16,624 nt of DNA from positions 1 to 16,624 of the forward strand of contig JAGPUU010000262.1 of NCBI GenBank assembly GCA_018067325.1, given 5' to 3'. How positions within the stretch are numbered: the first letter of the stretch is position 1; the number at the start of each line of letters is the position of its first letter. The position numbers were made by a program, and so were the translations under genes. Below the pieces are notes generated by a model. The model was not told the origin of the DNA and did no database searches. It was given only the letters and a program-made list of their open reading frames with translations. This document shows positions 9,054-12,567 of the stretch, piece by piece. The stretch comes from Amphritea sp. Its GTDB lineage: Bacteria > Pseudomonadota > Gammaproteobacteria > Pseudomonadales > Balneatricaceae.

Positions 9054-9077
9054 TGCCAACCCCGATTAGAGTTGGCA
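9054..9077 (-). other. Inverted repeat overlapping the tRNA-Trp 3' end
   Basis: TGCCAAC (9054-9060) and GTTGGCA (9071-9077) are perfect 7-bp complements separated by 10 bases. One arm includes the encoded CCA, the discriminator base and the last acceptor base of the tRNA. In a precursor RNA this stem would compete with the acceptor stem or mark the 3' trailer. No T-run follows, so it is not a classical terminator. Any role in 3' processing is inferred. Confidence 0.4.
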
Positions 9078-9148
9078 GGCCAGGAGGGACTCGAACCCCC
9101 AACCTGCGGTTTTGGAGACCGCTGCTCTGCCAATTGAGCCACTGGCCT
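9073..9148 (-). tRNA. tRNA-Trp (anticodon CCA)
   Basis: This is a 76-base tRNA including an encoded 3' CCA (9075-9073). The acceptor arms AGGCCAG (9148-9142) and CTGGCCT (9083-9077) pair over 7 bp, with A1-U72 and discriminator G73 as in E. coli tRNA-Trp. The D arm GCTC/GAGC, anticodon stem GCGGT/ACCGC with loop CTCCAAA (anticodon CCA), a 5-base variable loop and the T arm GGGGG-TTCGAGT-CCCTC (one G-U pair) complete the cloverleaf. It lies between tuf and secE, the usual place downstream of tufB in many gammaproteobacteria. No terminator separates it from tuf, so it is probably cut from a tuf cotranscript. Confidence 0.98.
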
Positions 9149-9159
9149 AGTGCTAACTA

Positions 9160-9211
9160 GGGACGCATATATTACACACGTCCCCGTCAGGTAGCAACAA
9201 TTAAGTTGCTA
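9160..9211 (-). other. Two hairpins in the tuf - tRNA-Trp spacer
   Basis: The 74-base gap holds GGGACG/CGTCCC (9160-9165 and 9179-9184; 6 bp, 13-base loop) and TAGCAAC/GTTGCTA (9192-9198 and 9205-9211; 7 bp, 6-base loop). Neither is followed by a T-run on the coding strand, so they do not look like terminators. They may protect the 3' end of the tuf message after the tRNA is cut out. Confidence 0.45.
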
Positions 9212-9222
9212 TAAATCAACGA

Positions 9223-10446
9223 TTACTCGATGATTTTAGACACAACGCCTGCACCAACTGTACGTCCGCCTTCACGGATCGCAAAACGCAGACCTTCTTC
9301 CATCGCGATTGGGTTGATCAGGGTAACATCCATCTTGATGTTATCGCCTGGCATTACCATCTCAACGCCTTCTGGAAGCTCACAAGCACCGGTGATATCA
9401 GTTGTACGGAAGTAGAACTGTGGACGGTAGCCCTTGAAGAATGGAGTGTGACGACCACCCTCATCTTTGGACAGTACGTATACTTCACCTTCAAAACGCG
9501 TATGAGGAGTGATAGAACCTGGCTTAGCCAGTACCTGACCACGCTCAACGTCATCACGCTTAGTACCACGTAGCAGCGCACCAACGTTCTCGCCTGCACG
9601 ACCTTCGTCAAGCAGCTTACGGAACATCTCAACACCCGTACAGGTAGTCGTCGTTGTATCTTTAACACCAACGATTTCGATCTCTTCGCCAGTTCTAACG
9701 ATTCCACGCTCGATACGACCCGTTACTACGGTACCACGACCGGAGATAGAGAATACGTCCTCGATAGGCATCAGGAATGGCTGATCGATTGCACGCTCAG
9801 GCTGAGGAATATAAGAATCCAGCGCTTCTACCAGCTTCTTAACAGCAGTAGTACCTAGCTCGTTCTCATCCTGGCCGTTCAATGCCATCAGGGCAGAACC
9901 AGCGATGATTGGAGTGTCGTCACCTGGGAATTCGTACATATCCAGAAGCTCACGCAGCTCCATTTCAACCAGCTCAATCATCTCTTCGTATTCTTCAGAG
10001 TCAACGCCGCCGCAATCTTCAGCCAGCAGGTCAGCTTTGTTCAGGAATACAACGATGTACGGTACACCAACCTGACGAGACAGTAGGATGTGCTCACGAG
10101 TCTGTGGCATAGGGCCATCAGTCGCGCCACATACCAGAATAGCACCGTCCATCTGAGCAGCACCGGTGATCATGTTCTTAACATAATCGGCGTGTCCTGG
10201 GCAGTCTACGTGTGCGTAGTGACGCTCAGAAGAATCATACTCAACGTGAGAAGTTGCGATAGTGATACCACGCTCGCGCTCTTCTGGTGCATTGTCGATA
10301 CCGTCAAAAGCGACAGCCTTACCACCGTAAACTTCAGCACAAACACGTGTCAGTGCTGCTGTCAGTGTTGTTTTACCGTGGTCAACGTGGCCGATTGTAC
10401 CAACGTTAACATGCGGTTTATTACGCTCAAACTGTTCTTTAGCCAC
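9223..10446 (-). CDS. tuf: Translation elongation factor Tu
   Basis: This GTPase brings aminoacyl-tRNA to the ribosomal A site. It has 407 residues against 394 in E. coli. The start is GTG 10446, eight bases after GAGG. Nucleotide-binding motifs are intact: G1 GHVDHGKT (19-26), G2 RGITI (59-63), G3 DCPGH (81-85, with catalytic H85), G4 NKAD (136-139) and G5 SAL (184-186). Domains 2 and 3 follow, ending [12 protein letters not shown]. About ten extra residues follow NKAD (acidic [17 protein letters not shown]) and about three more lie near residue 190. It lies 30 bases after fusA, as tufA does, and 74 bases before tRNA-Trp, as tufB does. This mixed neighbourhood implies that one copy stands for two tuf genes, so the sequence may be a tufA/tufB composite. 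Confidence 0.97.
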
Positions 10447-10476
10447 GATTAATACCTCATTAATATATTGGGCAAA

Positions 10477-12567
10477 TTATCTTGCATTGATTACTGCTTC
10501 AGCGACATTTTTTGACGCTTCACCATAATCAAGGAATTCCATAGAGTAGGTTGCACGACCTTGGGTAGCAGAGCGGAGATCGGTAGCATAACCAAACATC
10601 TCACCCAGCGGTACCTGGGCGTCAATTATTTTACCAGAACTACTATCTGTCATACCCTGCACCAAACCACGACGACGGCTAAGGTCACCCATAACGTCAC
10701 CCATGTAGTTTTCAGGTGTAACAACTTCTACTTTCATCACTGGCTCAAGCAGACAGGGACTTGCTTCCTGCGCATACTTTTTAAGCGCCTGAGATGCAGC
10801 AATTTTAAACGCCATCTCGTTAGAGTCAACATCATGGAAGGAGCCGTCATACAGACGCGCCTTCAGGCCGATAAGCGGATAACCGGCAATTACACCGTTC
10901 TTCATCTGCTCCGCGACACCCTTTTCAATCGCAGGGATATATTCCTTAGGAATAGAACCACCCACGATCTCATTGATGAACTCCAGCCCCTCCTCATCGG
11001 AAGGGCTAAACTCAATGACGACATGGCCATACTGACCACGACCACCGGACTGACGGATAAACTTGTGGTTTGCCACGACAGACTTGCGGATTTTCTCGCG
11101 ATAGGCCACCTGCGGCTTACCGATGTTCGCTGACACGCTAAATTCACGCCTCATGCGATCCACCAGAATATCCAGGTGTAATTCGCCCATGCCTGAGATG
11201 ATTGTCTGGCCGGTCTCAGGGTCGGTCTCAACCCGGAAGGAAGGATCTTCTTGCGCTAGCTTACCCAGTGCAAGACCCATCTTTTCCTGGTCTGCCTGTG
11301 ATCTAGGCTCAACCGCTACTGAAATTACCGGCTCAGGAAACTCCATGCGTTCCAGAATGATTCGATCATTAGGACTGCACAGCGTCTCTCCAGTAGTAAC
11401 ATCTTTCACACCGATCAGAGCTGCGATATCGCCTGCGCGAACCTCTTTAATCTCTTCCCGGTTATTTGCGTGCATCTGCACCATCCGCCCAACGCGATCT
11501 TTCTTACCTTTAACAGAGTTAACAATACTGTCACCGGAAGCCAGCACGCCAGAGTACACCCGAACAAATGTCAGCGTACCTACGAATGGGTCAGTTGCAA
11601 TTTTAAACGCCAGAGCTGCAAAAGGAGCACTATCATCGGCTTCACGCGTTGCAACGGTTTCATCGTCATCGAGCACACCCTCAATCGCCTTAACTTCCAC
11701 CGGCGACGGCATATACTCAATAACGGCATCCAAAACCGCCTGAACACCTTTATTCTTAAATGCAGAACCTGCCTGCATCAGAACCAGGTCATTATCAAGG
11801 GTACGGCGACGCAAGCCTGCCTTGATATCTTCATTGGACAGATCACCCTCTTCAAGGTACTTATCCATCAACTCGTCAGTAGCTTCAGCAGCCGCTTCTA
11901 TCATCTGCTCACGCAGATCTTCAGCTTGTCCCTGCAGCTCAGCTGGGATCTCTTCCAGCTCGTAAGTCATCCCCTGATCCGATTCATTCCACATAATGGC
12001 TTTCATACGGACCAGATCGACAACACCTTTAAACTCTTCCTCTGCACCGATCGGGAAATTGATCGGCACAGCATGAGCACCCAGACGCTCTTTCAACTGA
12101 TCAGCGACCATGAAGAAGTCTGCGCCCGCACGGTCCATCTTATTGACGAACACCATGCGTGGTACTTCATACTTGTTTGCCTGACGCCATACGGTCTCAG
12201 TTTGAGGCTGAACACCAGAAGACGCACACAACACCACAACTGCACCATCAAGTACCCGCAGAGAACGCTCAACTTCAATCGTGAAGTCAACGTGCCCCGG
12301 TGTATCAATGATGTTGATCCGGTGCTGATCAAACTGCTGGCTCATACCACTCCAGAAACAGGTAGTCGCAGCGGAGGTGATAGTGATACCACGCTCCTGT
12401 TCCTGCTCCATCCAATCCATGGTCGCTGCGCCATCATGTACTTCACCGATTTTATGAGACATACCGGTGTAGAACAGAACGCGTTCAGTCGTAGTGGTTT
12501 TACCCGCATCAACATGGGCAACGATACCGATATTTCGGTATCTGTTAATAGGCGTTTTACGAGCCAA
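10477..12567 (-). CDS. fusA: Translation elongation factor G
   Basis: This 696-residue GTPase drives translocation of tRNA and mRNA on the ribosome (E. coli: 704). Motifs are G1 AHVDAGKT (17-24), G2 RGITI (59-63), G3 DTPGH (88-92) and G4 NKMD (142-145). Domain II begins around residue 290, and the C-terminal domains IV-V include [12 protein letters not shown] and the EF-G signature [16 protein letters not shown]. The start is a rare TTG at 12567 ([15 protein letters not shown]), eight bases after GAGG. A TGA lies in frame two codons upstream, with only GTT between, and the family N-terminus begins exactly here, so no ATG start is available. It lies 30 bases after rpsG and 30 before tuf, the standard str arrangement. 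Confidence 0.97.

Follow-up and report, generated by a model that had tools for sequence, protein, structure and literature searches.

A 16.6-kb circular contig of housekeeping genes in Amphritea sp., most probably an assembly phantom closed through a pair of tuf genes

Introduction

Contig JAGPUU010000262.1 of an Amphritea sp. assembly (GCA_018067325.1) carries RNA polymerase, ribosomal protein and elongation factor genes, and its two ends join, leaving a single tuf between fusA and secE. Such a contig raises the question of whether this circle exists in the cell or was made during assembly. The window, by which we mean the whole stretch of DNA analysed (16,624 nucleotides), is the entire contig. 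Judging from the sequences compared here, we consider it very probable (about 0.96) that the 16.6-kb circle is an assembler-made phantom derived from the ordinary chromosome of a marine bacterium and closed through two near-identical copies of tuf.

Results

A closed contig of housekeeping genes

The first 59 bases of the window are exactly its last 59 bases (0.00 expected by shuffling), and because of this identity the contig closes to a circle of 16,565 bp. The rpoC frame stays open over the join, giving 1406 amino acids overall; rpoC spans the contig ends and is then followed by rpsL, so that the block does not have one of these two genes at each outer end. Gene names were recognised by translation and backed by matches to annotated orthologues:

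1..59, no strand: terminal repeat copy 1, the contig-closing overlap, within rpoC
3..1367, minus strand: rpoC 5' part, continuing over the closure into 13712-16624
1441..5541, minus strand: rpoB
5715..6086, minus strand: rplL, annotated orthologue matched in loci L026/L027
6149..6646, minus strand: rplJ, orthologue match
6862..7557, minus strand: rplA, orthologue match
7557..7991, minus strand: rplK, orthologue match
8097..8630, minus strand: nusG, orthologue match
8643..9011, minus strand: secE, neighbour on the tufB side, orthologue match
9073..9148, minus strand: tRNA-Trp (CCA), neighbour on the tufB side
9223..10446, minus strand: tuf, sole copy in the window, 407 aa, GTG start, hybrid
10477..12567, minus strand: fusA, 696 aa, neighbour on the tufA side, orthologue match
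12598..13068, minus strand: rpsG, orthologue match
13211..13585, minus strand: rpsL, orthologue match
13712..16624, minus strand: rpoC 3' part, the rest of the 1406-aa rpoC
16566..16624, no strand: terminal repeat copy 2, identical to 1-59

This content of 12 protein genes and one tRNA is chromosomal housekeeping throughout, with a largest intergenic gap of 215 bp, and no replication or partition gene is found among the 12 protein genes. The window was also considered as a plasmid or virus and rejected as such, the genes being seen without a replication, mobility or structural gene. Mixed bases were looked for, and ambiguous bases number zero both in tuf (9223-10446) and elsewhere in the window. 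The preliminary description had assigned the sole tuf a tufA context upstream (fusA) and a tufB context downstream (tRNA-Trp, then secE); both are seen, and they match the contexts in two relatives, G015 and G011.

Flank contigs and a hybrid tuf

Two further contigs of the same assembly also carry parts of tuf. One, C480, starts within tuf and continues through the tRNA cluster of tufB (Thr-Tyr-Gly-Thr) to coaX-birA, while the other, C351, leads from rplC-rpsJ to tuf and ends inside it. Projected on the window, they divide the gene as follows:

9222..9358, minus strand: tuf stretch common to the C351 end, 136/137 identical; C351 then has rpsJ, not tRNA-Trp
9359..10289, minus strand: tuf middle, 931 bp, found once in the assembly; A and B copies indistinguishable here
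10290..10445, minus strand: tuf stretch common to the C480 start, 151/156 identical; C480 then has the tRNA Thr-Tyr-Gly-Thr cluster, not fusA

Since C480 and C351 both stop in tuf, the genome would have two tuf genes, and the middle part common to both was built a single time and placed in the loop. It had been proposed that collapse of two direct tuf copies makes the circle at the cost of its outer flanks, with tuf leading also to rpsJ and to the region upstream of tufB. Both flanks are indeed present, on C480 and C351, and these contigs bear out the two additional exits from tuf at contig level. A search of the assembly for duplicates of the loop's remaining genes found only contig C336, which matches part of fusA at 68%.

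The circle overlap comprises 59 exact bases, and the window agrees with C351 over 117 and with C480 over 58 exact bases before the first difference. These lengths did not fit one k-mer value, so the contig ends may not derive from a single k-mer length; 59 would be one of the k values stepped through by a widely used metagenome assembler. Identity to G011, the closest relative, is 94.6% for C480, 98.8% for C351, and 97.7% and 96.0% for the window's two sides.

The window's tuf combines a tufA-type 5' end (GTG start, G at base 15) with a tufB-type 3' end (G at base 1206). A GTG start with G15 is shared by the fusA-linked genes (window, G011 tufA and G015 tufA), and an ATG start with A15 by the tRNA-Thr-linked genes (C480, G011 tufB and G015 tufB). 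At base 1206, G is found in the tRNA-Trp-linked genes (window, G011 tufB and G015 tufB) and A in the rpsJ-linked genes (C351, G011 tufA and G015 tufA). Few sites define this linkage of A and B alleles. The window and C480 also carry private differences, at bases 21 and 36 and at bases 72 and 99 respectively, and a strain mixture is therefore possible.

Linear order in relatives and the length of the loop

In G015, both tuf copies lie on one gap-free stretch in ordinary linear order. The two tuf genes are 16,559 bp apart, start to start, in G015 and 16,565 bp apart in G011, the latter distance being equal to the window's circle. In a one-strand, error-free k-mer graph of the linear 23.5 kb of G015, the shortest cycle was 16,559 at 10/10 k values from 21 to 141. 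More broadly, both tuf loci are found about 16 kb apart on a single contig in 9/16 same-genus genomes; G011 is a tenth with both loci, its tufA holding a 100-N gap.

Taken with the two flank contigs, these relatives suggest a linear chromosome ordered tRNA(Thr-Tyr-Gly-Thr)-tufB-tRNA-Trp-secE-nusG-rplKAJL-rpoBC-rpsLG-fusA-tufA-rpsJ. Here tufA and tufB would be nearly identical direct repeats of 1.2 kb that merge in a k-mer graph, and because they merge, a path arriving from fusA through tuf would have two exits, rpsJ and tRNA-Trp. Only one path, the one leading back to where it began, would then receive the common middle part of tuf, so that a closed contig is output and the outer arms remain as two contigs ending within tuf. 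The exact assembler steps and a short-read input are what we infer from these patterns.

Discussion

Evidence for a phantom and alternative explanations

An artefact is supported by the identical contig ends, the presence of C480 and C351 in the same assembly, the mixture of tufA and tufB alleles in the window's tuf, a circle length equal to the tuf-to-tuf distance in G011 and the k-mer-graph loop of a relative. Weighing the other way are the unequal exact overlaps at the contig ends, the differing identities to G011, the small number of allele sites, the private differences of the window and C480, and two deposited records that present such a loop as a plasmid. The preliminary description had judged an assembly artefact most likely, a view strengthened by the flank contigs, the A/B hybrid tuf and the agreement of the loop with the tuf-to-tuf period of G011. 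The adjacency fusA-tuf-secE was rejected as sole proof, being natural in Proteus mirabilis, and it is for this reason that closure and the two flank contigs, rather than adjacency, carry the argument.

A real tandem duplication of the tufB-to-tufA segment, arising by unequal tuf recombination in some or all cells of the population, would produce a true hybrid tuf and is expected to leave C480 and C351 as flank contigs too. Direct repeats are substrates for tandem duplications by recombination, and those of tuf sit 16.6 kb apart. We nevertheless regard this as very unlikely, given that it requires a third tuf to which nothing points, and that fusA precedes tuf in 0/29 named loci having tuf and at least 500 bp ahead of it. 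These belong to the named loci around secE (the best 80 of 530 confirmed), 21 of which lie on contigs starting within tuf. Among the matches listed in the search of relatives, only G008 spans fusA-tuf-secE besides the window, and among the matches listed in a further search no genome but G000 reaches both fusA and tRNA-Trp. The G008 contig (C62) was rejected as a second hybrid and is not counted as support, because its upstream fusA is truncated, diverged (79% DNA identity with the other copy) and joined to unrelated sequence.

Natural rearrangement could also have placed fusA-tuf directly before tRNA-Trp-secE. The P. mirabilis record NZ_OL790811.1 has a contiguous fusA-tuf-secE like that of the window, within a linear rpsL-rpsG-fusA-tuf-secE-nusG-rplKAJL-rpoB-rpoC, and a second P. 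mirabilis strain matches a 5,001-base part at 99.7%; tRNA-Trp was not found within the 27-kb stretch of this record. Unlike the window, however, the record is linear (4.08 Mb) and its rpoC does not run into rpsL. In the window rpoC does run into rpsL and the block closes on itself, which is impossible for a linear chromosome without a tandem array. Contradicted by this closure, and by the other contigs of the assembly that take tuf to rpsJ and to tRNA-Thr, such a rearrangement appears exceedingly unlikely. Least credible, to the point of being almost negligible, is a genuine excised circle, or an essential plasmid, bearing the block, for which the clean closure of the contig and two deposited records of like make-up, labelled complete circular plasmids, might be cited. 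The 12 protein genes and one tRNA are all housekeeping, with no replication or partition gene among them, and had excision taken them out of the chromosome, the cell would have to rely on a circle in which no replication gene is recognisable. The deposited plasmids, moreover, bear the same artefact signature.

Deposited plasmids with the same loop

Among 60 of the 66 plasmid records with rpoB that were listed, these two loops are the only ones below 20 kb. The first, pSbal03 of Shewanella baltica OS155 (NC_009037.1, 16,762 bp), is likewise circular, has a single tuf flanked by fusA and secE, and shares with the window the full rpoBC-rpsLG-rplKAJL-nusG set and the lack of a replication gene (in its 12 features). 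It differs in being deposited as a complete plasmid and in having no tRNA-Trp between tuf and secE. The second, an unnamed plasmid of Pseudomonas chlororaphis PCL1606 (NZ_CP011111.1, 16,587 bp), has the same loop with fusA-tuf-tRNA-Trp-secE and, like the window's contig, was opened within rpoC, although it is the deposited complete plasmid of an isolate. According to PMC3478194, the OS155 chromosome is without the cassette genes of pSbal03. By analogy, and for OS155 also from that source, both plasmids are probably the same single-tuf artefact. That recombination between tufB and tufA truly amplifies the polymerase-ribosome block as a tandem array in this lineage, or excises it as a transient circle, with the two plasmids as snapshots of it in other Gammaproteobacteria, we hold to be very unlikely. 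An IMG/VR scan with rpsL gave 8 loci, 0 of them on 15-18 kb contigs.

In the open-access literature searched, we found no paper on a closed tuf circle or calling pSbal03 an artefact, nor, with PMC6403173 and PMC6367390 included, one calling the PCL1606 plasmid so. In PMC3478194 the pSbal03 cassette, missing from the chromosome, serves as a second line of evidence for lateral transfer of its genes, and PMC5812944 reported that strA on pSbal03 ranked first in abundance among mobile resistance genes in effluents. The pSbal03 record contains rpsL and lists no dedicated resistance gene. For this reason, and because strA is an older name for rpsL, the effluent count may reflect ordinary ribosomal genes.

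Precedents in metagenome assembly

The window's genes are those of the tufB-secE-rpoBC-str-S10 cluster of Gammaproteobacteria described in PMC8046335, to which the flank contigs add the tRNA Thr-Tyr-Gly-Thr and rpsJ expected from its ancestral order. In that cluster the arrangement is linear and two separate tuf genes are present, ahead of secE and behind fusA respectively, whereas the window merges both. Its seven operons, tufB included, are still connected in 38/103 Gammaproteobacteria by the same account, so the same tuf phantom can recur. Phantom cycles are known to arise in metagenome assembly graphs (the DomCycle paper, PMC9104695), where, as in the window, a repeat with two contexts gives a circular walk without a circular molecule. 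The repeats named there are transposons and integrated phage, whereas that of the window consists of two essential genes. A closer case, from PMC7111523, is a curated betaproteobacterial bin with an unplaced 15,678-bp piece that has EF-Tu at both ends and, like the window's loop, rpS7, rpS12, L7/L12, L10, L1 and L11 between them in a metagenome assembly. Its authors note there that such an EF-Tu duplication can be resolved in two ways, as two chromosomes or as one genome. Their piece remained linear and was positioned manually, in contrast to the window's loop, which was closed by the assembler through one tuf; a break at an EF-Tu pair with an unplaced loop piece is thus already in print.

Implications

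The locus is biologically ordinary and noteworthy as a data problem. The paired tuf genes can trap assemblies repeatedly, yielding a cleanly closed contig of about 16.6 kb that holds a complete set of essential genes, and published inferences depend on pSbal03. Such records would be flagged by a simple filter, namely a circular contig, a sole tuf flanked by fusA and secE, and no replication gene.

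Structure and closure of the contig

The window comprises the entire contig C451 of an Amphritea sp. assembly (G000, GCA_018067325.1) of 3.30 Mb in 486 contigs that is 93.4% complete, and all of its 12 protein genes and its one tRNA gene lie on the minus strand. A preliminary description had placed at 9073..12567 a single tuf with the upstream context of tufA (after fusA, before rpsJ) and the downstream context of tufB (before tRNA-Trp and secE), and these coordinates are correct. The 59 bases at the start of the contig are identical to the 59 bases at its end; once one copy is removed, a circle of 16,565 bp is obtained, in which rpoC is open across the join (1406 aa) and is followed again by rpsL. 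Among the best 80 of 530 named secE loci, the closest named genome is that of Amphritea sp. OB2 (98%). The gene orders of the window and of two other contigs in the same assembly, each of which stops inside tuf, are:

Window, minus strand: rpsL, rpsG, fusA, tuf, tRNA-Trp, secE, nusG, rplK, rplA, rplJ, rplL, rpoB, rpoC
C480, outward from tuf: tRNA-Thr, tRNA-Gly, tRNA-Tyr, tRNA-Thr, unnamed ORF, coaX, birA
C351, outward from tuf (tufA downstream region): rpsJ, rplC, rplD, rplW, rplB

The names of the protein genes on C480 and C351 were recognised from their translations. Three stretches of the assembly matched tuf. One is in the window itself; the others are the opening 156 bases of C480, within the 5' part of the gene, and the terminal 136 bases of C351, within its 3' part. 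The assembly thus holds two tuf 5' ends and two 3' ends, with the 931 bp middle present once. For the rest of the loop the assembly search found no second copy; the one exception was part of fusA, matched at 68% on contig C336. The content of C480 matches the region upstream of tufB in a one-contig relative with both tuf copies (G015) and in the closest relative (G011), and its tRNA set agrees with that of the tufB operon in a passage of PMC8046335; rpsJ and rplC were confirmed downstream of tufA in the same two genomes. The outer flanks of tuf predicted in the preliminary description are therefore present in the same assembly, the rpsJ side as C351 and the tufB upstream side as C480.

Hybrid tuf alleles and repeat period

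In the cases checked, the tuf linked to fusA has a GTG start (window:10444-10446) and G at base 15 (window, tufA of G011 and G015), whereas the tuf linked to the tRNA-Thr cluster has an ATG start and A at base 15 (C480, tufB of G011 and G015). Base 1206 is G in the tRNA-Trp-linked copies (window, tufB of both relatives) and A in the rpsJ-linked copies (C351, tufA of both relatives). Because it combines a tufA-type start and base 15 with a tufB-type base 1206, the window tuf is a hybrid of the A and B types, and its diagnostic sites lie about 1.1 kb or more apart. Private bases in the window (21 and 36) and in C480 (72 and 99) count against a simple allele picture.

The distance between tuf starts in G011 is 16,565 bp, equal to the window circle, and the window aligns to this interval without gaps. 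The 100-N gap in tufA of G011 (L031, the retrieved locus, 3902-4001) falls outside the interval, and is another sign of tuf defeating assembly. In G015 the distance is 16,559 bp, and the shortest cycle in a one-strand, error-free k-mer graph of its linear 23.5 kb was 16,559 for each of the 10 k values tried, from 21 to 141; a correct linear chromosome thus suffices to generate the circle.

Frequency in related genomes

The tufB-secE and fusA-tufA pairs are separated by about 16 kb on a single contig in 9 of 16 same-genus genomes (G001, G002, G003, G005, G007, G009, G010, G014, and G015), and also in G011, but with its gap. Three more (G004, G006, and G016) have a contig that starts inside tuf and meets the opposite tuf edge after 15-16 kb; G008, G012, and G013 make up the rest. 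One G008 contig (C62; L028:1-3733) has a truncated fusA before tufB, 79% identical in DNA to the second fusA of that genome and joined in frame to an acid-phosphatase-like piece, and is probably chimeric.

Within the best 80 of 530 named secE loci, 31 have a complete tuf with no fusA match before it, 21 are on contigs starting inside tuf, 9 are on contigs that start <1.5 kb before secE and show no match to tuf, and 19 lack an upstream tuf. In 29 loci of this sample tuf is preceded by 500 bp or more of sequence, and none of them has fusA in that position. Contig breaks at tuf are common in the sample, and closure into a loop is rare. When 390 genomes of the taxonomic order were searched, G000 alone, among the matches listed, reached both fusA and tRNA-Trp.

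Artefact or natural arrangement

Adjacency alone is no proof of an artefact, because Proteus mirabilis NZ_OL790811 (L122, the retrieved locus, 5417-22247) naturally carries a linear rpsL-rpsG-fusA-tuf-secE-...-rpoBC order; no tRNA was found in a 27-kb stretch of it. This record, at 4.08 Mb, is chromosome-sized, yet is labelled a plasmid. In the window, the case for an artefact rests on closure, flank contigs, hybrid alleles, and exact repeat period together. On these grounds the window circle is an assembly artefact and not a real feature, with a probability of about 0.96, which bears out the reading first favoured.

Phantom cycles arising from repeats have been described (PMC9104695), and a passage of PMC7111523 reports, for another genome, a 15,678-bp piece (rpS7, rpS12, L7/L12, L10, L1, and L11) with EF-Tu at both ends that metagenome assembly left unplaced, pointing out that two chromosomes and one genome are both compatible with a single long duplicated pair. 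On these passages the tuf-pair break is in print and the window exemplifies an artefact already known, which weakens any claim that the break went unnoticed. In the open-access papers searched, we found no account of tuf forming a closed circle or of such a circle entering plasmid databases.

The same loop in deposited records

Two records deposited as 'complete' circular plasmids, pSbal03 of Shewanella baltica OS155 (NC_009037.1, 1-16762; 16,762 bp) and that of Pseudomonas chlororaphis PCL1606 (NZ_CP011111.1, 1-16587; 16,587 bp), contain only the tuf-bounded chromosomal loop, with the gene set of the window, a single tuf flanked by fusA and secE, and no further annotated gene. Of 66 plasmid records with rpoB, 60 were listed, and among these only the two are shorter than 20 kb; both are probably artefacts. 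The 44,107-bp Serratia liquefaciens 'plasmid' (NC_021742.1, 1-44107; murB-birA-tuf-rpoBC-thi-pur), which has two incomplete rRNA operons that come together at its ends, looks closed through these operons and may be a parallel case of the same kind of error. Legionella adelaidensis 'plasmid 8' (NZ_LR134417.1, 105.8 kb) has the two tuf copies in their usual arrangement, tuf-secE ... fusA-tuf-rpsJ (L123, the retrieved locus, 10081-27882), and is probably a piece of chromosome labelled as a plasmid. Phage-collection records matching fusA-tuf or fusA (KR093631.1, Moraxella phage Mcat7, 109-3532; CAKLQH020000044.1; CAKLQF020000022.1), which include 'Acinetobacter phage MD-2021a', may represent flanking host DNA or bacterial contigs with a wrong label.

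A passage of PMC6403173 names rpoB on plasmids of four proteobacterial strains (OS155, S. liquefaciens ATCC 27592, Salmonella Senftenberg, and PCL1606), and the PCL1606 plasmid is among the plasmid sequences of a metagenome study (PMC6367390), where the printed accession is CP011110.1, not CP011111. Published inferences have used pSbal03: its strA ranked first in abundance among mobile resistance genes in PMC5812944, and the absence of its cassette genes from the chromosome was read as lateral transfer in PMC3478194, which also offers gene-tree discordance in Bacteroidetes, a point that the present data do not touch. Collapse between the tuf copies predicts the same chromosomal absence of these genes.
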